DNA from: Xanthomonas hyacinthi
GTDB lineage: Bacteria; Pseudomonadota; Gammaproteobacteria; Xanthomonadales; Xanthomonadaceae
Direction: 5' to 3'
DNA length: 64,000 nucleotides
NCBI RefSeq assembly: GCF_009769165.1
Contig: NZ_CP043476.1
Coordinates: forward strand, 3,355,001 to 3,419,000
A model generated the notes under the pieces. The model was not told the origin of the DNA and did not search any database. It saw only the letters and a program-made list of their open reading frames with translations. Shown here in pieces: positions 34,579 through 50,141 of the stretch. The translations under genes and the position numbers were made by a program. How positions within the stretch are numbered: position 1 is the first letter of the stretch; every line of letters begins with the position of its first letter.

Positions 34579-37769
<3,191 letters not shown>

Positions 37770-37773
<4 letters not shown>

Positions 37774-39221
37774 GCGAACCAGCCGTGCAGCATCAGTGCG
37801 TCCGGCGCATCGGTCGGCGCGAACACCCAGGCGCGCTGACCCTGGCGGGTGCGCACGATGTAGTAGTCGCGGCGCACGTCGCCGTCGTCCCACCAGCCGC
37901 TTTCGATGCGTTCCGGGCCGGCCAGGCGCTCGGGGTTGCGTTCGCGCAGCGGGATCGGGCGGGTCAGCAGCCAGCCGGGGCGCGGCAGCGCGGTGGACGC
38001 GGCCACGTGGGGCGCGGTCGATTTGTTGGTCTTGCCTGCCTGCGCGGGCTTGCCGGATTCGGCGCGCCACGCCTGTTCGGGACGGTGGTCGGCATGCGCG
38101 CGCAGGCCGTGCACCGCGTCGTCGCCGAGGCGCGCGCGCAGGCGTTCGCGCAACTGTTCCCAGGGCAGCGCCTGCTGCGCGCGGTCGTCGAACAGTTCGC
38201 GCGCGGCGGGCACGAACGGCGGCAGTTCGTCGGCGCGCAGGCGCAGCGCCTGTACCGGTGCCGGCACGCTGGCCTGCTGCAGGCGGCCGCGGGCCAGTTC
38301 GAACAGCATCGCCGCTTCGCGTTCGGCGGCGAGCAGGCCGACCGGTACCACGCTGTCGGCCAGGCCTTCGTGTTCCAGGTGCAGTTGGAAGCGCTGCACG
38401 CCGCCGTCGCGCCCGGCCAGGAACGCGGCCAGATCGGCGGTCAGGCGGCGCAGCGGGAACAGCAGGGCCTGGCTGGATTCCACTGCGTAACCCAGTTCCA
38501 GCCGCGCATCGAAACGGTCCGGCGGCAGGTAGTACTGCAGCGGCAGCGGCGCCTGCCCGCGCAAGGCATCCAGATGCTGCAGCAGCGTGGGTGGGTAGCG
38601 CCGCGCCAGTGCAGTGCGCGGCAGTGCGAACAACTGCTGCAGTCGACGCAGGCCCATCCTTGCGAAGGCGTCGGCCAGGCCCGGTTCCAGCCCGGCGCGG
38701 GCGATCGGCAATTGGTCCAGCGCGCCGTGCAGCGCGGCGTTGTCGAGCAGGGCGATGCCGTCGTGCGCATTGGCCAGCACGCGCGCGGCCAGCGGATGCG
38801 GCGCGACCACGATGCGGTGGCGGAAACCCAGCGCGGTCAGCTCCTCGCGCAGGCGCGCCTCGAAGCGCGGCCATGGCCCGAACAGGCCCAGGCTGGCCTC
38901 GATCTCCAGCAGCAGCGCGCCGGGATAATCGGTGCTGACCAGCGAGCTGAAACGGTAGGCCCAGGCCGCCAGGAACTGCTGGTAGCGGCGGCTTTCCTCG
39001 GCATCGTGCAGAGCGGTGGCGAAGCGCTCGCACAGCGCCTGCGCGGTGGCCAGCGATTGCCCGGGCTGCAGGCCGCGTGTGCGTGCGGCGGCGTTGACCG
39101 CCTTCAGCGTGCGCCGCTGCGGCGGGCCGGCGAGCAGGACCAGCGGTGCGTCCGGCGTCGGCCAGCGCCGCAGCACCGTGTCGAGCGCCAGTTGCGGCAG
39201 CAGGATGCAGGCCCAGCGCAT
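37770..39221 (-). CDS. imuB: ImuB, Y-family polymerase-like protein
   Basis: 483 residues from ATG 39221. The N-terminus [19 protein letters not shown] and the [16 protein letters not shown] region are typical of ImuB, a Y-family relative lacking the catalytic carboxylates of active polymerases. It is thought to bind the beta clamp and recruit DnaE2. The C-terminal half carries the conserved [20 protein letters not shown] and [17 protein letters not shown] ending. The frame continues open into dnaE2 but ends at 37770. Confidence 0.92.
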
Positions 39222-39231
39222 GCGTGCGCCC

Positions 39232-39867
39232 TCAAGCCGATGCCGACGCTGGCGCGGCCAGCGCGGACAGCGCGATGGCGCGCGCCGGCGGCATGCCGCC
39301 GCGGCACTTGAGCACGCGTAACTGCGCCGGTGCGGCATCGATGGCGATGCGCAGCGCGGCCGGCGACGGATTGGCCGCGGCCTTCAGCGGCCGATAGGCG
39401 AAGCCCAGCGCGCGCCCGGTCTCGGCCGCCACCTGCAGCCGGCGCAGGGTCTTGTCGTTGGCCTGCGCCGGCCAGCACAGCACCGCCGCGCAGCTGCCCG
39501 ACCGCAGGCCTTGTTCGGCGGCCCAGGCCGCGTCGGCACCGGCACGCACGATCTGCAACTGCGGCAGCGCCACGCCGGCCTGTTGCCAGGCGCCGGGGTA
39601 GGGCAGATAGGGCGGATCGACCAGCACGATCCGGCCGCCGCCCTGCGACAGCCGCGCCAGCGTCGGCCACAGCAGCTGCAGTTCGCCGATGCCGTCGGCG
39701 GCATGCAGCAGTTCGGTCAGCGCCATTTCCGGCCAGCCTCGCGCCGGCAGCGCGGCGTCGAGCGCGGCATGGCCGGTGGGCTGCGTGCTGGGCGGCAGCG
39801 CGGTCGGCTGGCCGCGCCAGACCCGGCGTTCGGCGAGCAGGCGATCGAGGGCGACGACGGCAGCCAT
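39232..39867 (-). CDS. imuA: ImuA, SOS mutagenesis accessory protein (RecA/SulA-like)
   Basis: 211 residues from ATG 39867, whose A is shared with the lexA2 stop (TGATG). It has a RecA-like core without a good Walker A: LDAALPARGWPEMALTELLH, RIVLVDPPYLPYPGAWQQAG, then VLCWPAQANDKTLRRLQVAA and ALGFAYRPLKAAANPSPAALR. ImuA works with ImuB and DnaE2 in damage-induced mutagenesis; ten bases separate it from imuB. Confidence 0.92.
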   Translation of the reverse strand: MAAVVALDRLLAERRVWRGQPTALPPSTQPTGHAALDAALPARGWPEMALTELLHAADGIGELQLLWPTLARLSQGGGRIVLVDPPYLPYPGAWQQAGVALPQLQIVRAGADAAWAAEQGLRSGSCAAVLCWPAQANDKTLRRLQVAAETGRALGFAYRPLKAAANPSPAALRIAIDAAPAQLRVLKCRGGMPPARAIALSALAAPASASA

Positions 39868-40484
39868 CAGCCTTGCCGGATCAGGCCGCAGTAATGCCCT
39901 TCGATGGCGAAGTCCTGCCCCGCCTGCACCACGATCGGCGCGTAGGCCGGATTGCGCGGCAGCAGCTGGATGCGTGCGCCGTCGTGCCGGTAGCGCTTGA
40001 TGGTGATCTCGCCGTCCAGCCGCGCCACCACGATCTGCCCGTCGCGCGCATCGGCGGCGCGGCGTACCCCGACCAGATCGCCGTCGAGGATGCCGTCGTC
40101 GATCATCGAATCGCCCTGCACGCGCAGCAGGTAGTCCGGACGCAGCGCGAACAGCGCGCGGTCCAGCCGCAGTTGCTGGTCCAGGCCGATATCGGCGCCG
40201 ATCGGCGCGCCGGCGGCGACCCGGCCCAGCACCGGCAGCCGCAGCAGCCCGCTGCGCCGCTGCGCCTGCACCGGTCGCAGGCTGCGCGCCTGCTGCGGCA
40301 CATGCTCGAGCAGCCCGGCCTCGACCAGCGCCTGCACGTGCTTGCGCGCGGCATTGCGCGAGGCGAAGCCGAAGCGCGCGGCGATCTCGGCCAGGCTCGG
40401 CGGCCGTCCGGCCTGCTCGGCGCAGTCGTGGACGTAGGCGAGGATGGCGGCGCGCTGTGGCGAGAGGGATTCCATGGTGTACAT
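39867..40484 (-). CDS. lexA2: LexA2-type SOS repressor
   Basis: Up to 205 residues (ATG 40484; ATG 40475 gives MESLSPQRAAIL and is equally plausible). The winged helix is LAEIAARFGFASRNAARKHV; the self-cleavage site is Ala91-Gly92 (GRVAAGAP), with Ser126 (QGDSMIDDG) and Lys163 (EITIKRY). As first gene of lexA2-imuA-imuB-dnaE2 it represses its own operon until RecA-stimulated cleavage. It is distinct from the housekeeping LexA. Confidence 0.93.
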   Translation of the reverse strand: MYTMESLSPQRAAILAYVHDCAEQAGRPPSLAEIAARFGFASRNAARKHVQALVEAGLLEHVPQQARSLRPVQAQRRSGLLRLPVLGRVAAGAPIGADIGLDQQLRLDRALFALRPDYLLRVQGDSMIDDGILDGDLVGVRRAADARDGQIVVARLDGEITIKRYRHDGARIQLLPRNPAYAPIVVQAGQDFAIEGHYCGLIRQG

Positions 40485-40648: not shown

Positions 40649-41884
40649 TCAGCCCGGCGCCGAACCATCGGGCATCACCCCGGCATAGCGCGCGCGTGGG
40701 CGGATCAGCTTGCCCAGTGCCTGCTGTTCCAGCGCATGCGCCAGCCAGCCGGACAGCCGGGCGGCGGCGAACAGGACCAGGGCGTGGGCGGCGGGCAGGT
40801 CGTGGATGAGGCAGATCGCCGCGAGCATGCCGTCGATGTTGGGCGCCTGGCCGCTGCAGTCCTGCGCCGCGGCGAGCACCGTTTCCACATGCCGCATCTG
40901 CGGGTGGTGGCCGCAGCGTTCGCGCAGCAGGCGCAGGACCTCGGCGGCGCGCGGGTCGCCGTCCGGGTACAGCGCGTGGTGGAAGCCGGGCAGGTCGTCG
41001 CCGCGCTGCCAGCGTTCGGCGATGAAGGCCGCCGGGTCGGCGGCGTCCTGGGCGTCGCGCAGCAGCGCGTGGGCGCGGGCGGTGGCGCCGCCATGGCGCG
41101 GGCCGGACAGCGCGGCCAGGCCGGCGCTGACGGTGGCGTGCAGCGGCGCGCCGGTGGAGGCGACCACGCGCGCGGCGAAGGCGGAGACGTTGAGTTCGTG
41201 ATCGGCGCACAGCACCAGGGTGGCGCGCACCAGCTCGGCGACGTCGGCATCGCCCGGGCGCCAGCGGTCGGCGATCAGGCGATGCACCGGCCGGGTGTCC
41301 GGCTGGGCGCCGACCAGCAGCGCGGCGTTCTGCCGCAGCAAGGTGGCGGCGATCTCGCGGCGCACCGTCGGCGCGGCGTTGAGCGGCTGGCGCAGCTCCA
41401 GGGCCAGCAGCGGGATGCAGGCCATGGCGCGCTCCAGCGGCGGCAGCGTAGTGTCGCCGGCCAGCGGGGCCACGCGCGGCGACCAGGGCGCCGTCGCCGC
41501 GCTGGCGAACGGATCCTCGTCCTGGCAGTCCCACAGTAGCCGCGCGATGTCCTCCAGGCCGGCACCCTCGCGCACCAAGGCCACCGCCGAGCGCCCGCGG
41601 TAGTAGGGGCCGTCGGGCCGGATCAGCGAGATGCGCGTCTCCAGCACCGGCAGGCCGCGGTCCAGGCTCTGCGCGGCCCCGCGTGCGGCCCCGCGGCCGA
41701 CGCGCTTGCGCTGGGCCAGCCGCTCCACCTCCGTGCGCAGATAGGCGCGGCTGCGGTGGTCGGCGCCGGCGCGCGAACCGAGCAGGCCGCGGCTCACGTA
41801 GGCGTACAGCGTGGCGCTGCTGATGCCGAGCAGGGCGCAGGCCTCGGCGGCGGAGATCAGGTTGCGGTCGGCTTCGGGGGACAT
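40649..41884 (-). CDS. Citrate synthase-fold protein with N-terminal helix-turn-helix
   Basis: 411 residues. Residues 8-60 (NLISAAEACALLGISSATLY, then SRGLLGSR and LRTEVERLAQRK) form a MerR-like helix-turn-helix. Residues about 80-411 are citrate synthase: TRISLIRPDGPYYRGRSA, ADHELN (His229), GPRHGGATA (His264), GFHHALYPDGDPR (His302/303) and NIDGML (Asp351). The catalytic His, His and Asp are kept. It is divergent from prpB across a 119-base gap with a 17-bp palindrome, and no PrpR or GntR regulator gene is nearby, so a metabolite-sensing repressor or activator of the 2-methylcitrate genes is a strong inference; it may also be an active enzyme. Confidence 0.85.
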   Translation of the reverse strand: MSPEADRNLISAAEACALLGISSATLYAYVSRGLLGSRAGADHRSRAYLRTEVERLAQRKRVGRGAARGAAQSLDRGLPVLETRISLIRPDGPYYRGRSAVALVREGAGLEDIARLLWDCQDEDPFASAATAPWSPRVAPLAGDTTLPPLERAMACIPLLALELRQPLNAAPTVRREIAATLLRQNAALLVGAQPDTRPVHRLIADRWRPGDADVAELVRATLVLCADHELNVSAFAARVVASTGAPLHATVSAGLAALSGPRHGGATARAHALLRDAQDAADPAAFIAERWQRGDDLPGFHHALYPDGDPRAAEVLRLLRERCGHHPQMRHVETVLAAAQDCSGQAPNIDGMLAAICLIHDLPAAHALVLFAAARLSGWLAHALEQQALGKLIRPRARYAGVMPDGSAPG

Positions 41885-41901
41885 GGGGATCCGCTGATAG
41901 G

Positions 41902-41918
41902 TTGATTCATTGAATCAA
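41902..41918. promoter_or_regulatory. Candidate operator between the HTH-citrate synthase gene and prpB
   Basis: TTGATTCATTGAATCAA is a perfect 17-bp palindrome with an AT-rich centre in otherwise GC-rich DNA, 18 bases upstream of the divergent regulator start and 86 before prpB. It is the only obvious dyad in the gap. Confidence 0.7.
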
Positions 41919-42003
41919 GATTGATCGGCTGGGGCGATGGTGCCAGATTGGCGGCCATCGCGGAACGGCCGTGCAGGCCGCCGCCCTCGCTCAGGAGTTC
42001 GTC

Positions 42004-42891
42004 ATGTCGCAGGCTTCCGCTGGCGCCCGTTTCCGCGCCGCGTTGGCCGCCGAATCGCCGCTGCAGGTGATCGGCGCGATCAACGCCAACCATGCGCTGC
42101 TGGCGCAACGCGCCGGCTACCGGGCGGTCTACCTGTCCGGCGGCGGCGTCGCCGCCGGGTCGCTGGGCCTGCCGGACCTGGGCATCAACACCCTGGACGA
42201 CGTGCTGATCGACGTGCGCCGCATCACCGATGTTTGCGACCTGCCGCTGCTGGTGGACATCGACACCGGCTTCGGCCCGAGCGCGTTCAACATCGAGCGC
42301 ACCATCAAGGCGCTGATCAAGGCCGGCGCGGCCGCCTGCCATATCGAGGACCAGGTCGGCGCCAAGCGCTGCGGCCACCGGCCTGGCAAGGAGATCGTCA
42401 GCCAGGGCGAGATGGTCGACCGGGTCAAGGCCGCCGCCGATGCCAGGACCGATGCCGACTTCTTCCTGATCGCGCGCACCGACGCGATCCAGGTGGACGG
42501 CGTGGATGCGGCGATCGCGCGCGCCATCGCCTGCGTGGAGGCCGGCGCCGACGGCATCTTCGCCGAGGCCGCCTACGACCTGGACACCTACCGCCGCTTC
42601 GTCGATGCGGTGAAGGTGCCGGTGCTGGCCAACATCACCGAATTCGGCAAGACCCCGCTGTTCACCCGCGACGAGCTGGCCCAGGCCGGGGTGGCGATCC
42701 AGCTGTTCCCGCTGTCGGCGTTCCGCGCCGCCAACAAGGCCGCCGAGGCGGTGTACACCGCGATCCGCCGCGACGGCCACCAGCAGAACGTGGTGGACAC
42801 GATGCAGACCCGCGAGGAGCTGTACGAACGCATCGGCTACCACGCCTTCGAACAGCGCCTGGACGCTCTGTTCGCCGGCAAGGGCGCATGA
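42004..42891 (+). CDS. prpB: 2-methylisocitrate lyase
   Basis: 295 residues of the isocitrate lyase superfamily. The catalytic cysteine is Cys123 in [14 protein letters not shown]; metal-binding acids are in LVDIDTGFG and IEDQ; the N-terminal [18 protein letters not shown] is typical of PrpB. It splits 2-methylisocitrate into pyruvate and succinate, the last step of propionyl-CoA oxidation. First gene of the locus. Confidence 0.95.
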
Positions 42892-42922: not shown

Positions 42923-43525
42923 ATGAACACCCATGCCGGCACCACGCCGCCACGCGGCCGCATCGACCGCCGCCAGACCGCGCGGCAGTTGCTGCAGACC
43001 GAACTGGAGAAACTGCCGGACGCCGAGCGCCAGGTGGTGGAGCGCTTCATCGCCAAGCGCCACGTGGCGCGCGACATCGTCAAGCAGGCCGACCGCGACC
43101 GCTCGCTGGGCGAGCGCATCGCCGATCGCGTGGCCGAAGTCGGCGGCAGCTGGAGTTTCATCATCGGCTTCGGCCTGGTGCTGCTGGCGTGGATCGCGCT
43201 CAACAGCCTGGTGCTGGCGCATGCCTTCGATCCGTATCCCTACATCCTGCTCAACCTGTGCCTGTCGTGCCTGGCCGCGATCCAGGCGCCGGTGATCATG
43301 ATGAGCCAGAACCGCCAGGCCGCGGTGGACCGCCTGCGCGCGCAGAACGATTACGAAGTGAACATCAAATCCGAGCTGGAGATCCTGCAGGTGCACGAGA
43401 AGCTCAACCAGTTGCGCGAGCAGGACTGGGCGACGCTGGTCGACCTGCAGAACCGCCAGATCGCCATGCTGCAGCAATTGCTCGAGCGCGCCGGCGGCCT
43501 GTCGCCGGACGCCTCCCTGCGCTGA
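42923..43525 (+). CDS. DUF1003 membrane protein
   Basis: 200 residues. Two adjacent membrane helices (about 78-104 and 110-132: [20 protein letters not shown] and [20 protein letters not shown]) followed by the conserved [20 protein letters not shown] and a cytoplasmic coiled coil. This is the DUF1003 pattern; function unknown. It sits between prpB and prpC with short spacers, so it is co-transcribed with propionate genes, which is unusual. Confidence 0.88.
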
Positions 43526-43568: not shown

Positions 43569-44735
43569 ATGAACGACACCACCGCCCCGCACACCGCCAC
43601 GCCCTTCAAGCCGAAGAAATCGGTGGCCCTGTCCGGTACCGCCGCCGGCAACACCGCGCTGTGCACGGTGGGCCGCAGCGGCAACGACCTGCACTACCGC
43701 GGCTACGACATCCTGGACCTGGCGCGCAGCAGCCAGTTCGAGGAGATCGCCTACCTGCTGGTGCACGGCAAACTGCCCAGCACCAGCGAGCTGCGCGGCT
43801 ACAAGGCCAAGCTGCGCTCGCTGCGCGGGGTGCCGGCCGCGGTCAAGGCGGCGCTGGAACAGCTGCCGCCGTCGGCGCATCCGATGGATGTGATGCGCAC
43901 CGGCGTGTCGGTGCTGGGCTGCGTGCAGCCGGAGAAGGACGACCACAACCATCCCGGTGCGCGCGACATCGCCGACAAGCTGATGGCCTCGCTGGGTTCG
44001 ATGCTGCTGTACTGGTACCACTACAGCCACAACGGCCGGCGCATCGAGGTGGAGACCGACGACGATTCGATTGGCGGCCATTTCCTGCACCTGCTGCATG
44101 GCGTCAAGCCGCACGCCGAATGGGTGCAGGCGATGCACACCAGCCTGATCCTGTACGCCGAACACGAATTCAATGCGTCCACCTTCGCCTGCCGGGTCAT
44201 CGCCGGCACCGGCAGCGACATGTACAGCGCCATCGCCGGCGGCATCGGCGCGCTGCGCGGGCCCAAGCACGGCGGCGCCAACGAGGTCGCGTTCGAAGTG
44301 CAGAAGCGCTACGACACGCCCGACGAGGCGGAAGCCGACATCCGCGCGCGGGTCGAGCGCAAGGACGTGATCATCGGCTTCGGCCACCCGGTGTACACGG
44401 TCAGCGATCCGCGCAACCAGGTGATCAAGGACGTGGCGCGCGAACTGTCCGATGCGCAGGGCAGCCGCAAGATGTACGACATCGCCGAGCGCCTGGAGGC
44501 GGTGATGTGGGAGATCAAGAAGATGTTCCCGAACCTGGACTGGTTCAGCGCGGTCAGCTACCACATGATGGGCGTGCCGACCGCGATGTTCACCCCGCTG
44601 TTCGTGATCGCGCGCACCGCCGGCTGGAGCGCGCACATCGTCGAGCAGCGCATCGACGGCAAGATCATCCGCCCCAGCGCGAACTACACCGGGCCGGAGG
44701 ACCAGACCTTCGTGCCGATCGACCGGCGCAGCTGA
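43569..44735 (+). CDS. prpC: 2-methylcitrate synthase
   Basis: 388 residues of the citrate synthase family in the PrpC branch. His234 (GPKHGGANE), His273 ([14 protein letters not shown]) and Asp324 ([14 protein letters not shown]) are the catalytic residues. It condenses propionyl-CoA with oxaloacetate. The NLDWFSA motif and length favour methylcitrate over citrate synthase, as does the operon. Confidence 0.95.
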
Positions 44736-45046: not shown

Positions 45047-47659
45047 ATGAACAGCCACTACCGCACCACCCTGCCGGGCACTTCGCTGGAGTATTTCGAC
45101 GCGCGCGCCGCGGTCGATGCGCTCCGGCCCGGGGCCTATGCCACGCTGCCGTATACCGCGCGGGTGTTCGCCGAAAACCTGGTGCGGCGCTGCGATCCGG
45201 CCACGCTGGACGCCTCGCTGACGCAGCTGATCGAACGCCGCCGCGACCTGGATTTCCCGTGGTTTCCGGCGCGCGTGGTGTGCCACGACATCCTCGGCCA
45301 GACCGCGCTGGTGGACCTGGCCGGGCTGCGCGATGCGATCGCCGAGCGCGGCGGCGATCCGGCGCAGGTCAATCCGGTGGTGCCGACGCAGCTGATCGTG
45401 GACCACTCGCTGGCGGTGGAATTCGGCGGCTTCGACAAGGCCGCGTTCGCCAAGAACCGCGCAGTGGAAGACCGCCGCAACGCCGACCGCTTCCACTTCA
45501 TCGACTGGACCAAGCGCGCGTTCGAGAACGTCGACGTGATCCCGCCGGGCAACGGGATCATGCACCAGATCAATCTGGAGAAGATGTCGCCGGTGGTGCA
45601 GGTGCGCGATGGCGTGGCGTTCCCGGATACCTGTGTGGGCACCGACAGCCACACCCCGCACGTGGATGCGCTGGGCGTGCTGGCGATCGGCGTCGGCGGG
45701 CTGGAGGCGGAGAGCGTGATGCTGGGGCGCGCGTCGTGGATGCGCCTGCCGGACATCGTCGGCGTGGCGCTGAGCGGACGGCCGGGCGCCGGCATCACCT
45801 GTACCGACATCGTGCTGGCGCTGACCGAGTTCCTGCGCGCGCAGAAGGTGGTCGGCGCCTACCTGGAATTCTTCGGTGCCGGTGCGGCGGCGCTGACCAT
45901 CGGCGACCGCGCGACCATCTCCAACATGTGCCCGGAGTACGGTGCGACCGCGGCGATGTTCTCCATCGACCGGCAGACCCTGGACTACCTGCGCCTGACC
46001 GGCCGCGAGGACGCGCAGGTCGCGCTGGTGGAAACCTACGCCAAGGCCGCCGGGCTGTGGGCCGACGACCTGACCGCGGCGCAGTACGAACGTGTGCTGC
46101 AGTTCGACCTGTCCAGCGTGACCCGCAACATGGCTGGCCCGTCCAATCCGCACAAACGCGTGGCGACCAGCGACCTGGCCGCGCGCGGCATCGCCGACGA
46201 GGCCAAGCTGCAGGCCGGCAGGCGCGAACAGGCGCAGGGGCTGATGCCCGACGGCGCGGTGATCATCGCCGCGATCACCAGCTGCACCAACACCAGCAAT
46301 CCGCGCAACGTGATCGCCGCCGGCCTGCTGGCGCGCAACGCCAACGCGCGCGGGCTGAGCCGCAAACCGTGGGTCAAGACCTCGCTGGCGCCGGGCTCCA
46401 AGGCGGTGCAGCTGTACCTGGAGGCATCCGGGCTGCTGCCGGAGCTGGAGCAGCTGGGTTTCGGCATCGTCGGCTTCGCCTGCACCACCTGCAACGGCAT
46501 GAGCGGCGCGCTGGACCCGGCGATCCAGCGCGAGGTGATCGAACGCGACTTGTACGCCACCGCGGTGCTGTCGGGCAACCGCAATTTCGACGGGCGCATC
46601 CATCCCTACGCCAAGCAGGCGTTCCTGGCCTCGCCGCCGCTGGTGGTGGCGTACGCGATCGCCGGCACCATCCGCTTCGACATCGAGAAGGACGTGCTGG
46701 GCGTGGACAAGGACGGCCAGCCGGTGACGCTGAAGGACCTGTGGCCCAGCGACGCGGAGATCGACGCGATCGTCGCTGCCAGCGTCAAGCCCGAGCAGTT
46801 CCGCCAGGTCTACGAGCCGATGTTCGCGCGCAGCGGACTGGCCGCCGCGCAGGTGGCGCCGCTGTACGCGTGGCGCCCGCAGAGCACCTATATCCGCCGC
46901 CCGCCTTACTGGGAAGGCGCGCTGGCCGGCGAACGGACGCTGCGCGGCATGCGCGCGCTGGCGGTGCTCGGCGACAACATCACCACCGACCACCTGTCGC
47001 CGTCCAACGCGATCCTGGCCGACAGCGCCGCCGGCGAATACCTGACGCGGATGGGCGTGCCGGAGGAGGACTTCAATTCCTACGCCACCCACCGCGGCGA
47101 TCACCTCACCGCGCAGCGCGCCACCTTCGCCAATCCGCAACTGCTCAACGAAATGGCCGTGGTCGCTGGCCAGGTCCAGCGCGGTTCGCTGACCCGGCTG
47201 GAGCCGGAAGGGCAGGTGCTGCGCATGTGGGAGGCGATCGAGACCTACATGGCGCGCAAGCAGCCGTTGCTGATCGTGGCCGGCGCCGACTACGGGCAGG
47301 GCTCCTCGCGCGACTGGGCGGCCAAGGGCGTGCGCCTGGCCGGGGTCGAGGCGATCGTGGCCGAGGGCTTCGAGCGCATCCACCGCACCAACCTGGTCGG
47401 CATGGGCGTGCTGCCGCTGGAATTCCGGCCCGGCACCACGCGCAAGACCCTGGGCATCGACGGCAGCGAGGTGTTCGACGTGCTCGGCGCACGCACGCCT
47501 GGCGCCACGCTGACCCTGGCCATCGCCCGCGCCGACGGCGCGCGCGTGGAGGTGCCGGTGACCTGCCGCCTGGACACCGCCGAGGAACTGGCGATCTACG
47601 AAGCCGGCGGCGTGCTGCAGCGCTTCGCGCAGGATTTCCTGGAAGCTTCTGCGGCCTGA
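45047..47659 (+). CDS. acnD: 2-methylcitrate dehydratase, Fe/S-dependent (AcnD)
   Basis: 870 residues of the aconitase superfamily. The 4Fe-4S cysteines are Cys413 (TSCTNTSNP), Cys479 and Cys482 (GFACTTCNG). Swivel-domain motifs GSSRDWAAKG and LVGMGVLPLEF are present. AcnD rather than AcnA is inferred from the prp context and from prpF downstream: AcnD dehydrates 2-methylcitrate and needs PrpF for the cis-isomer step. Confidence 0.92.
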   Translation: MNSHYRTTLPGTSLEYFDARAAVDALRPGAYATLPYTARVFAENLVRRCDPATLDASLTQLIERRRDLDFPWFPARVVCHDILGQTALVDLAGLRDAIAERGGDPAQVNPVVPTQLIVDHSLAVEFGGFDKAAFAKNRAVEDRRNADRFHFIDWTKRAFENVDVIPPGNGIMHQINLEKMSPVVQVRDGVAFPDTCVGTDSHTPHVDALGVLAIGVGGLEAESVMLGRASWMRLPDIVGVALSGRPGAGITCTDIVLALTEFLRAQKVVGAYLEFFGAGAAALTIGDRATISNMCPEYGATAAMFSIDRQTLDYLRLTGREDAQVALVETYAKAAGLWADDLTAAQYERVLQFDLSSVTRNMAGPSNPHKRVATSDLAARGIADEAKLQAGRREQAQGLMPDGAVIIAAITSCTNTSNPRNVIAAGLLARNANARGLSRKPWVKTSLAPGSKAVQLYLEASGLLPELEQLGFGIVGFACTTCNGMSGALDPAIQREVIERDLYATAVLSGNRNFDGRIHPYAKQAFLASPPLVVAYAIAGTIRFDIEKDVLGVDKDGQPVTLKDLWPSDAEIDAIVAASVKPEQFRQVYEPMFARSGLAAAQVAPLYAWRPQSTYIRRPPYWEGALAGERTLRGMRALAVLGDNITTDHLSPSNAILADSAAGEYLTRMGVPEEDFNSYATHRGDHLTAQRATFANPQLLNEMAVVAGQVQRGSLTRLEPEGQVLRMWEAIETYMARKQPLLIVAGADYGQGSSRDWAAKGVRLAGVEAIVAEGFERIHRTNLVGMGVLPLEFRPGTTRKTLGIDGSEVFDVLGARTPGATLTLAIARADGARVEVPVTCRLDTAEELAIYEAGGVLQRFAQDFLEASAA

Positions 47660-47727
47660 TGTCACGCAAGTCCCTACCAGGAAACATCGGCCTCGCTTGC
47701 ACTCCCGGGGGGGGCGATGCACAATTT

Positions 47728-47742
47728 TGGCAAAGTTTGCCA
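47728..47742 (+). promoter_or_regulatory. Candidate ParD operator
   Basis: TGGCAAA-G-TTTGCCA is a perfect 15-bp palindrome 11 bases before the parD start, where ribbon-helix-helix antitoxins normally bind to control their own operon. Confidence 0.65.
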
Positions 47743-47753
47743 TTGAGGTGCGT

Positions 47754-47996
47754 ATGGCCACCATGAACATCTCCTTGCCCGACGAACTCAAGCAGTTCGT
47801 CGATCAGCAGGTCGCCGAGCACGCCTACGGTTCCAGCAGCGAGTACATGCGCGAGTTGATCCGCAAGCACCGCGACGTGGAAACGCTGCGTGGAGTGTTG
47901 TTGGACGGCGCCGGTTCCGGACCGGCGACGGCGATGGAACCCGATTTCTTCGGCACGATGCGCCAGCGTGCCCAAGGGCGGGCTGCCGGCAAGTGA
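47754..47996 (+). CDS. parD: ParD-family antitoxin
   Basis: 80 residues. The ribbon-helix-helix start MATMNISLPDELKQFVDQQV and YGSSSEYMRELIRK are typical of ParD/CopG antitoxins. It neutralises ParE and represses the pair. It sits between acnD and prpF, so the toxin-antitoxin pair has been inserted into the propionate locus. Confidence 0.93.
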   Translation: MATMNISLPDELKQFVDQQVAEHAYGSSSEYMRELIRKHRDVETLRGVLLDGAGSGPATAMEPDFFGTMRQRAQGRAAGK

Positions 47997-48310
47997 AGCC
48001 GGCGCATTGGCGTCCATTGGCGCAGCGCGATGCCGAGGAGGCAGCGGCGTGGTATGGCGAACAAGGCGGCTCGACACTGGAACTGGCGTTCGTCGATGCG
48101 CTCGAAGCGGCGATCAAGACGATCGCGCGGCATCCGGGTATCGGCTCCACGCGCCATGCCGTTCTGTTGAAGCTGCCGCACCTGCGATTCTGGCTGCTCG
48201 AAGGTTTCCCGTATCTGATCTTCTATGTCGAACGCGAGACGCATGTCGAACTCTGGCGCCTTCTGCATGCGCAGCGGGACATCCCAGCATGGATGCGGGA
48301 AGACGCATGA
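47993..48310 (+). CDS. parE: ParE-family toxin
   Basis: 105 residues from a GTG overlapping the parD stop (GTGA). The pattern PLAQRDAEEAAAWYGEQGG, FVDALEAAIKTIARHPGIGS, LRFWLLEGFPYLIFYVERE and ELWRLLHAQRDIPAWM is the RelE/ParE fold; ParE-type toxins usually inhibit DNA gyrase. Conserved arginine and terminal Trp are present, so it looks intact. Confidence 0.92.
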   Translation: MKPAHWRPLAQRDAEEAAAWYGEQGGSTLELAFVDALEAAIKTIARHPGIGSTRHAVLLKLPHLRFWLLEGFPYLIFYVERETHVELWRLLHAQRDIPAWMREDA

Positions 48311-48453: not shown

Positions 48454-48915
48454 ATGAGCAACGGCCATCCCGGTAGCGTCCGCCTGCACCGCGTCCTGCG
48501 TGCGCCGGCCGAGCGCATCTACCGCGCCTTCCTGGAGCCGGCGGCGCTGGCCAAATGGCTGCCGCCGCATGGCTTCGTCGCCACCGTGCATGCGTTGGAT
48601 GCGCGCGTGGGCGGCAGCTTCAGGATCTCCTTCGGCAACCTGGGCGCCGGGACCAGCGAGTCCTTCGGCGGCACCTATCTGGAACTGGTGCCGGGCGAAC
48701 TGATCCGCCATACCGATACCTTCGACAACCCGGACCTGCCCGGCGAGATGGTGGTGACGATCAAGCTGCGCCCGGTGGCGTGCGGCACCGAGCTGGACAT
48801 CGTCCAGCACGGCATTCCCGAACAGATCCCGGTGGAACTCTGCTACCTCGGCTGGCAGGAGTCGCTGACCCTGCTGGCGCATCTGGTCGAGGCCGAGATT
48901 CCCGCCAACCCCTGA
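48454..48915 (+). CDS. SRPBCC-family (AHSA1-like) protein
   Basis: 153 residues of the START/Bet v1-like fold: VRLHRVLRAPAERIYRAFLE, LAKWLPPHGF, GGSFRISFGNL, GGTYLELVPGELI and the terminal GWQESLTLLAHLVE. Such proteins bind hydrophobic ligands; the role is unknown. It lies between parE and prpF and may belong with the inserted segment. Confidence 0.85.
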   Translation: MSNGHPGSVRLHRVLRAPAERIYRAFLEPAALAKWLPPHGFVATVHALDARVGGSFRISFGNLGAGTSESFGGTYLELVPGELIRHTDTFDNPDLPGEMVVTIKLRPVACGTELDIVQHGIPEQIPVELCYLGWQESLTLLAHLVEAEIPANP

Positions 48916-48950
48916 GCCACTCCTGCCCTCTGCGTCGATCGGAAAACCCC

Positions 48951-50141
48951 ATGTCCCATGTTCCCCAACTCCGCATTCCCGCCACCTACATGCGCGGCGG
49001 CACGTCGAAGGGCGTGTTCTTCCGCCTGCAGGATCTGCCGCCTGCCGCGCAGGTGCCGGGCGCGGCGCGCGATGCGTTGCTGCTGCGGGTGATCGGCAGT
49101 CCCGATCCCTACGCCAAGCAGATCGACGGCATGGGCGGGGCCAGCTCCAGCACCAGCAAGACGGTGATCGTGGCGCCGAGCACGCGCGCGGACCACGACG
49201 TGGACTATCTGTTCGGCCAGGTCTCGATCGATCGCCCGTTCGTGGACTGGAGCGGCAACTGCGGCAATCTGTCGGCGGCGGTGGGGCCGTTCGCGATCGC
49301 CGCCGGCCTGGTCGATGCCGCGCGCGTGCCGCACGACGGCATGGCCACGGTGCGGATCTGGCAGGCCAACATCGGCAAGACCATCCTGGCGCAGGTGCCG
49401 ATCGTGGCCGGTGCGGTGCAGGAAAGCGGCGACTTCGAACTGGACGGGGTGACCTTTCCGGCGGCCGAGGTGCAGCTCGAATTCCTCGATCCGGCGGCCG
49501 ACGAAGAGGGGGCGGACGGGGCGATGTTTCCGACCGGCAATCTGATCGATACGCTCGAGGTGCCGGGCGTCGGCAGCTTCCAGGCGACCTTGATCAACGC
49601 CGGCATTCCGACCATTTTCCTCGACGCGCAGGCGCTGGGCTACCGCGGCACCGAACTGCAGGACGCGATCAACGGCGATGCGCAGGCGCTGGCCAGGTTC
49701 GAGACCATCCGCGCGTACGGCGCGCTGCGCATGGGCCTGATCGCCACGCTGGAAGACGCGGCGACGCGCCAGCACACGCCCAAGGTCGCCTTCGTCGCGC
49801 CGCCGGCCGACTACGTGGCCTCCAGCGGCAAGCCGGTCGCCGCCGCCGACATCGACCTGCTGGTGCGGGCGATGTCGATGGGCAAGCTGCACCACGCGAT
49901 GATGGGCACCGCGGCGGTGGCGATCGGCACCGCCGCGGCGATCCCCGGCACGCTGGTGAACCGCGCGGCCGGCGGCGGCGCGCGCCAGGCGGTGCGCTTC
50001 GGCCATCCCTCGGGCAGCTTGCGGGTCGGTGCCGAAGCCAGCCAGGCGGACGGCCAGTGGAGCGTCACCAAGGCGATCATGAGCCGCAGCGCGCGGGTGT
50101 TGATGGACGGCTGGGTACGGGTGCCGGGCGACATCGGCTGA
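48951..50141 (+). CDS. prpF: AcnD-accessory protein, 2-methylaconitate isomerase
   Basis: 396 residues. The PrpF family start IPATYMRGGTSKGVFFRLQD, GGASSSTSKTVIVAPS, WSGNCGNLSAAVGPFAIAAG and the HPSG motif near the end are all present. It isomerises trans-2-methylaconitate to the cis form and is needed when AcnD replaces PrpD. Separated from acnD by 1.3 kb containing parDE and the SRPBCC gene. Confidence 0.94.
   Translation: MSHVPQLRIPATYMRGGTSKGVFFRLQDLPPAAQVPGAARDALLLRVIGSPDPYAKQIDGMGGASSSTSKTVIVAPSTRADHDVDYLFGQVSIDRPFVDWSGNCGNLSAAVGPFAIAAGLVDAARVPHDGMATVRIWQANIGKTILAQVPIVAGAVQESGDFELDGVTFPAAEVQLEFLDPAADEEGADGAMFPTGNLIDTLEVPGVGSFQATLINAGIPTIFLDAQALGYRGTELQDAINGDAQALARFETIRAYGALRMGLIATLEDAATRQHTPKVAFVAPPADYVASSGKPVAAADIDLLVRAMSMGKLHHAMMGTAAVAIGTAAAIPGTLVNRAAGGGARQAVRFGHPSGSLRVGAEASQADGQWSVTKAIMSRSARVLMDGWVRVPGDIG

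Follow-up and report, generated by a model that had tools for sequence, protein, structure and literature searches.

Which protein controls the 2-methylcitrate operon of this genome, given that the gene facing the operon encodes a citrate synthase fold joined to a DNA-binding domain and that, as the first-pass annotation had remarked, neither a PrpR nor a GntR gene lies nearby? The window (the whole stretch of 64,000 nucleotides that was analysed) carries the genes in the order prpB-DUF1003-prpC-acnD-prpF opposite a gene here termed HCS, a name coined for the helix-turn-helix + citrate synthase fusion that it encodes (Table 1). Citrate synthase is the entry enzyme of both the TCA and the methylcitrate cycles. 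Judged from comparative sequence analysis, HCS is probably (at roughly 0.8) a one-component transcription factor dedicated to the 2-methylcitrate operon, with a former citrate synthase as its sensor.

Table 1. Coordinates in the window of HCS, its domains, the candidate control elements and the facing prp genes
Feature	Position	Strand	Remarks
HCS	40649..41884	-	411 aa, ATG start
Citrate_synt domain of HCS	40694..41659	-	residues 76-397; His229, His264, His303, Arg312, Asp351, Arg376, Arg395
HTH_17 domain of HCS	41705..41857	-	residues 10-60; Pfam match
Dyad TTGATTCATTGAATCAA	41902-41918	+	left part of the 25-bp element
Candidate operator TTGAT-N7-ATCAA-G-A-TTGATC	41902..41926	+	25 bp; comparative
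Inferred -35 box TTGATC	41921..41926	+	third half-site of the operator; from spacing; TTGATC in 88/89 Xanthomonadales sites
Inferred -10 box CAGATT	41944..41949	+	17 bp from -35, TGC before; from comparative spacing
prpB, methylisocitrate lyase	42004..42891	+	TIGR02317 over cut-off; ATG 42004, in-frame GTG 41971 also open
DUF1003 gene between prpB and prpC	42923..43525	+	PF06210
prpC, 2-methylcitrate synthase	43569..44735	+	NF009006, 720.4 bits, cut-off 550
acnD, 2-methylisocitrate dehydratase	45047..47659	+	TIGR02333, 1753.1 bits, cut-off 1419.85
prpF, 2-methylaconitate isomerase	48930..50141	+	TIGR02334, 760.9 bits, cut-off 440.55

The two-part architecture that had been read from the sequence at first pass, a helix-turn-helix followed by a complete synthase body, is borne out by the Pfam matches to HTH_17 (31.3 bits, cut-off 27) and to Citrate_synt (PF00285; 197.5 bits, cut-off 27), the latter extending over profile positions 3-357 of 357 and so being full length. 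His264, His303 and Asp351, which had been named as kept, align with their counterparts in true synthases, and together with His229, Arg312, Arg376 and Arg395 they are the same residues in the GltA-like synthase and in the PrpC of the same genome; residue 302 is a histidine as well, but varies among relatives. The roles that we take these oxaloacetate-binding and catalytic residues to have, and the pig-enzyme numbering used for them, are assumed from general knowledge of the enzyme. The synthase domain is divergent over its first half: solved structures are matched by the single HCS sequence mostly from about residue 203-221 onward, whereas the alignment of the family profile to solved structures begins at position 73. 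Among the 60 listed of 84 PDB matches all start at or beyond profile position 73, and none contains the helix-turn-helix part of the fusion. HCS stays below every listed NCBIfam cut-off for citrate synthases (best score 150.9 vs 332; TIGR01800 133.6 vs 421.3) and below those of two MerR models (20.0 vs 21.6 and 19.6 vs 28.2), and a domain search of the protein found no match to PrpR_N, AAA or GntR. Four relatives were scanned for MerR, of which three exceed the MerR_1 cut-off and one of these three also that of MerR.

The best matches to HCS come from Xanthomonas bonasiae (94%) and X. translucens (92%), and close relatives carry database names such as 'citrate synthase family protein', 'citrate/2-methylcitrate synthase' and 'helix-turn-helix domain-containing protein'. 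That most of these names denote a citrate synthase, and that the active site is retained, would agree with HCS being a second methylcitrate synthase whose helix-turn-helix is a relic or an oligomerisation tail. This reading is hardly credible, as the helix-turn-helix segment is among the best-conserved parts of the protein across phyla and is accompanied by a conserved DNA site; within it the stretch TLYAYVSRG (residues 25-33, 41786-41812) has each position kept in 191-199 of the 199 aligned rows with residues there. A regulatory role for HCS is further favoured by its divergence, regulators often being less conserved than the enzymes they control: its median identity to the window protein is 70%, compared with 91% for PrpB and 86% for PrpC, over the 58 of 60 loci (L105-L164) that have all three genes.

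prpB, prpC, acnD and prpF each exceed their NCBIfam cut-off and lie on the strand opposite HCS, so that the divergent arrangement with prpB-prpC-acnD-prpF recognised at first pass stands. The start codons of HCS and prpB are 119 bp apart if prpB begins at ATG 42004. A DUF1003 gene matches at the same operon position in relatives (e.g. L110, L118, L127, L164). Between acnD and prpF lie a ParD/ParE-type toxin-antitoxin pair (47697-48310) and an AHSA1-domain gene (48454-48915). On the far side of HCS are lexA (TIGR00498, 39867-40484), an IMS-domain gene (37770-39338) and a long open reading frame (34579-39033, minus strand) that by eye reads like a DNA polymerase; the stretch 34579-40484 on the minus strand is presumably a lexA-imuA-imuB-dnaE2 SOS mutagenesis cassette.

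The intergenic region contains the 17-bp dyad that had been noted at first pass. The dyad is real, but it is only the left part of a 25-bp element in which a third half-site follows the first two. The consensus of this candidate operator in the gaps between HCS and its partner genes is TTGAT-N7-ATCAA-n-ATTGA(T/C), with an inner spacing of 7 in 156 and of 6 in 7 of 163 deduplicated sites. With up to 3 mismatches allowed, the window holds a single copy of the 25-bp element and 100 shuffles hold none; TTGATN7ATCAAGATTGATC is likewise unique in the whole genome when up to 2 mismatches are allowed. Folding of the gap as a single strand was set aside, the z-score being -1.64 with 13 of 200 shuffles as good.

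Both the protein and the site were followed through a family sample of 297 genomes from 54 genera, of which 292 have prpB and 88, from 10 genera, have HCS. Conservation of the dyad beside homologues, a check proposed at first pass, is borne out in this sample: in 87 of the 88 genomes HCS and prpB diverge from each other, across gaps of 65-301 bp, and all 87 gaps contain the site. In the remaining genome (G104) the HCS gene is split between contigs and the site adjoins its other piece. HCS is also present, at E 1e-130 or better, in five additional genomes of the order (G297, G307, G324, G331, G337), with prpB opposite in four; in the fifth, G307, HCS is faced by acnD-prpF, prpB being placed on a different contig, and there is a single site in the whole genome. 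A further genome of the order, G313, has a weaker HCS match in two frames that faces a citrate synthase, again with the site present. Overall a regular expression recovers the site in 138 of 146 HCS locus entries, duplicates included.

The site also follows HCS on the scale of whole genomes. Every one of 30 HCS genomes searched has a single exact match to TTGATN7ATCAANATTGAY, and 20 genomes that lack HCS (10 with PrpR, 10 with neither regulator) have none. With up to one mismatch allowed, TTGAYN7ATCAAGATTGATC is present in 80 of 80 HCS genomes, at one place in 78 and at two places in 2; a reversed control pattern has no matches. Likewise, the site is missing from the 500 bp upstream of prpB in all 27 such regions taken from genomes devoid of HCS (9 with PrpR, 18 with neither). 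One of the two genomes with a second copy, G087 (L157), has both in the HCS/prpB gap, as an apparent tandem duplication. In the other, G230, the gap holds a TTGAC variant and the one exact copy sits on another contig, roughly 100 bp upstream of an acnD gene (TIGR02333, 1759.3 bits), where it continues as TTGATC-N17-CAGATT, the layout of the prp promoter; no acnD match is found in the 12-kb stretch around prpB-prpC of that genome. The site thus also occurs at an unlinked methylcitrate gene.

This last arrangement bears on whether the element might serve only the autoregulation of HCS, or belong to another factor altogether, with control of prp being incidental. Some rows from outside the prp-linked group could be read in that way, since 5 of the 13 without a recognised partner gene still have the site before HCS. 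The copy in front of an unlinked acnD, the absence of the exact site from all 20 genomes devoid of HCS that were searched and a promoter-like spacing directed toward the partner genes make such a reading very improbable.

Known regulators of the methylcitrate genes offer a different explanation for the control of the operon, and here the first-pass statement that none is encoded close by can be extended. The genome has no PrpR_N domain, its nine matches to the PrpR model are all below cut-off, and its six GntR matches all lie outside the window, at distances above 500 kb; a PrpR or GntR protein acting from elsewhere was set aside on these grounds. Nor is PrpR_N found in any of the 18 genomes of the genus group to which the window belongs. 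In the family sample the domain is present in 36 of 297 genomes, with no overlap with the 88 that have HCS, where 10.7 shared genomes would be expected if the two were independent (P about 1e-6, phylogeny ignored). The two even divide one genus (g29), with HCS in 4 genomes and PrpR in 12, and PrpR occupies the equivalent place, adjoining and divergent from prpB in all 8 PrpR loci fetched, as HCS is. A larger set of 168 genomes has prpB with neither HCS nor PrpR, including 2 of the 18 in the genus group of the window (G170 and G214, genomes of 3.5-3.7 Mb), so HCS is not needed by the operon everywhere. In 18 loci of this kind no regulator was recognised in the 2.2 kb upstream of prpB, where open reading frames were judged by eye; the names given by eye to their upstream genes are malate dehydrogenase-like in 7, acyl-CoA synthetase-like in 5 and another shared gene in 3.

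Published accounts of prp control in related bacteria are divided. In X. citri, PrpR encoded upstream of prpB is described as a repressor, and induction by propionate is reported to be independent of PrpR, which points to a further factor in that species (PMC12153269); the same may hold here. In X. oryzae, a review describes the PrpR of the prp locus as an activator, on unpublished data (PMC8657755), so that as described the two proteins have the same target and act with opposite sign (PMC12153269; PMC8657755). The GntR-type PrpR of Pseudomonas aeruginosa is described as a repressor at the methylcitrate operon (PMC9765439). The same source states, citing another paper, that all Xanthomonadales analysed use a Fis-type PrpR (PMC9765439); as worded there, this does not fit the 18-genome genus group of the window, which is free of PrpR_N. 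That genus group appears to be the translucens/sacchari-like branch, with citri and oryzae in another.

How HCS might act on the operon is suggested by the layout of the promoter. Because a strict scan of 41700-42100 for sigma-70 and terminator consensus sequences called nothing, the putative prp promoter rests on comparative spacing: a hexamer whose second base is A and whose sixth is T is found at a spacing of 17 from the third half-site in 99% of 89 deduplicated Xanthomonadales sites and at no other spacing between 14 and 21 in more than 9%. In 67 other sites the share is 51% at spacing 17 and never above 19% at the rest. Of the 89 Xanthomonadales sites, 88 have a TG in front of the -10 hexamer. 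Visual inspection of the site in reverse showed no convincing boxes for a promoter of HCS itself. MerR promoters have a typical spacer of 19-20 bp, and promoter distortion of the MerR type was set aside, since the inferred spacer here is 17 bp and the operator lies upstream of it.

Thus placed, the 25-bp element would overlap the -35 box and be centred near -42 of the inferred promoter, which fits either a repressor that blocks the -35 box or a class II activator, the latter being known to sit near -42 over the -35 box. Repression relieved by a ligand is favoured, at somewhat better than even odds. Activation is a tenable but less probable sign: besides the position of the element, it is suggested by the -10 boxes of many partner genes outside the Xanthomonadales, which are far from consensus, and by the activator role given to PrpR at the same operon in X. 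oryzae (PMC8657755, unpublished data). Against it, the near-consensus -35 box and the TG before the -10 box of the Xanthomonadales sites suggest a promoter capable of firing by itself, and the regulators described in X. citri (PMC12153269) and P. aeruginosa (PMC9765439), which are of other types, are repressors.

The active site is the part of HCS that might tell what is sensed. It was compared over 201 HCS rows (101 of the Xanthomonadales group and 100 others, a few genomes being present twice), of which 191, the window protein included, have HHHRDRR at the oxaloacetate and catalytic positions; the other 10 take in one fragment and one gene with stops. From the near-invariance of these oxaloacetate-site residues we infer that HCS may sense its substrate or product in its own active site, as had been supposed at first pass. 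The same retention would suit a bifunctional trigger enzyme, which would condense oxaloacetate with acetyl- or propionyl-CoA and let turnover set its DNA-binding state. This is unlikely on several grounds, one being that the genome already encodes two further citrate synthases, PrpC and the GltA-like enzyme, and another the scores of HCS under all listed citrate synthase cut-offs. The position equivalent to pig R324, which we take to be the CoA-phosphate arginine, is proline throughout the Xanthomonadales group (100 of 100 rows with an aligned residue) and in 81 of the 100 other rows, an argument that is weak because PrpC has threonine at that position. In addition, a few rows have lost a catalytic residue and kept the operator, namely L064 (Asn at 303), L102 (Ile at 264, Glu at 351) and L229 (Glu at 351); L230 is likewise devoid of a catalytic residue and keeps the operator with one mismatch. 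In a Caulobacterales genome (fetched twice, as L069/L093 and L240) residue 303 is Gln and the site is missing. Such losses are at least as compatible with sensing as with catalysis, though they prove neither.

The association between HCS and its site extends well beyond the order. An HCS match is present in 35 of 299 phylum-wide genomes, five of them in the order of the window, and the relatives among the best 80 listed in a scan of named genomes come from Alpha- and Betaproteobacteria, Chloroflexota, Acidobacteriota, Gemmatimonadota, Deinococcota and Rhodothermota. In the 100 rows outside the prp-linked group (G313 included, at least two genomes present twice), 67 have a citrate synthase as divergent partner, 20 a family III CoA-transferase and 13 none that was recognised; the family of the partner was tested for one synthase (Bradyrhizobium; PF00285 and NF009005) and one CoA-transferase (Paraburkholderia; PF02515). 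The strict site is present in 76 of these rows (75 by script and L104), and of the other 24, 22 were searched again, which placed 16 within 3 mismatches and 6 beyond. In a tree of 100 rows, drawn with a midpoint root and containing long branches, 13 chosen prp-linked HCS form one clade (100/99) whose neighbours are relatives that mostly face citrate synthase or CoA-transferase genes, and HCS clusters apart from five enzyme rows. The site persists from phylum to phylum beside different partner genes, as if HCS and its site had remained together and the target operon had been exchanged. Partner synthases of L060-L084 (e.g. beside L061 and L073) have Glu in place of the catalytic Asp in 22 of 22 with a residue there. 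The CoA-transferase partners (L199 4437-5864 and relatives) include those of Betaproteobacteria and Azospirillum-like bacteria, and the substrate of this enzyme could hint at the effector of HCS.

Protein, site, promoter-like layout and methylcitrate genes are associated across the genomes compared, and HCS itself presumably binds the predicted operator. The helix-turn-helix at its N-terminus would contact the TTGAT half-sites between the two start codons, the third of which would double as the -35 box of the prp promoter. The synthase part would form its usual dimer, with oxaloacetate, an acyl-CoA or (methyl)citrate held in the conserved active site. Citrate synthase is known for its open-closed movement, and such a movement could alter the grip of HCS on the DNA. 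The proposal made at first pass that HCS controls the operon it faces is strongly supported by comparison, through the divergent arrangement, the site that tracks the protein, the copy at an unlinked acnD and the lack of overlap with PrpR. The arrangement in G307, the six rows beyond 3 mismatches, the outcome of the strict promoter scan and the genomes with neither regulator count against it. A bolder version, and a doubtful one, would see in HCS an ancient group of catalytically competent synthase-factors spread across phyla, which make or hold (methyl)citrate and leave the operator in the closed state, so that the cell reads its supplies of acyl-CoA and oxaloacetate jointly and switches prp, CitA-like or CoA-transferase genes.

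A close parallel in design is the MocR/GabR family, in which an aminotransferase fold is fused to a winged helix-turn-helix and whose genes are often beside and divergent from those they control. Both have an enzyme fold and a DNA-binding domain in one chain, with the fold serving as sensor (as proposed for HCS). They differ in their parts, a PLP-dependent aminotransferase with a GntR-type helix-turn-helix as opposed to a citrate synthase with HTH_17, and neither MocR domain is found in HCS; HCS may thus work like MocR/GabR without being a member of that family. With MerR proteins it shares a similar N-terminal helix-turn-helix, with weak matches that in some relatives exceed the cut-off, but HCS itself is below both MerR cut-offs and its inferred promoter spacer is shorter than theirs. 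PrpC, CitA and GltA have the same domain and active-site residues, whereas HCS adds the helix-turn-helix, is divergent in its first half and misses the NCBIfam cut-offs. The Fis/sigma-54-type PrpR described in X. citri and X. oryzae is encoded at the prp locus and acts on the same genes (PMC12153269; PMC8657755), but HCS contains neither PrpR_N nor AAA and the putative promoter linked to it appears sigma-70-like. The GntR-type PrpR of P. aeruginosa acts on the methylcitrate operon as a local regulator and has a palindromic site predicted for it, yet it belongs to a different protein family and the site is another one, ATTGTCGACAAT (PMC9765439).

No description of a regulator combining a helix-turn-helix with citrate synthase was found in the open-access literature, a coverage outside which most subscription papers lie. 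Enzyme-derived regulators are known, but to our knowledge none derives from citrate synthase. With the enzyme paralogue PrpC encoded next door, this locus would allow the conversion of a metabolic fold into a sensor to be tested. If the proposed role of HCS is correct, many proteins annotated as 'citrate synthase' would be transcription factors, the site conserved from Proteobacteria to Chloroflexota would give an immediate readout of HCS targets, and a regulator of the methylcitrate operon would be identified for part of the Xanthomonadaceae.
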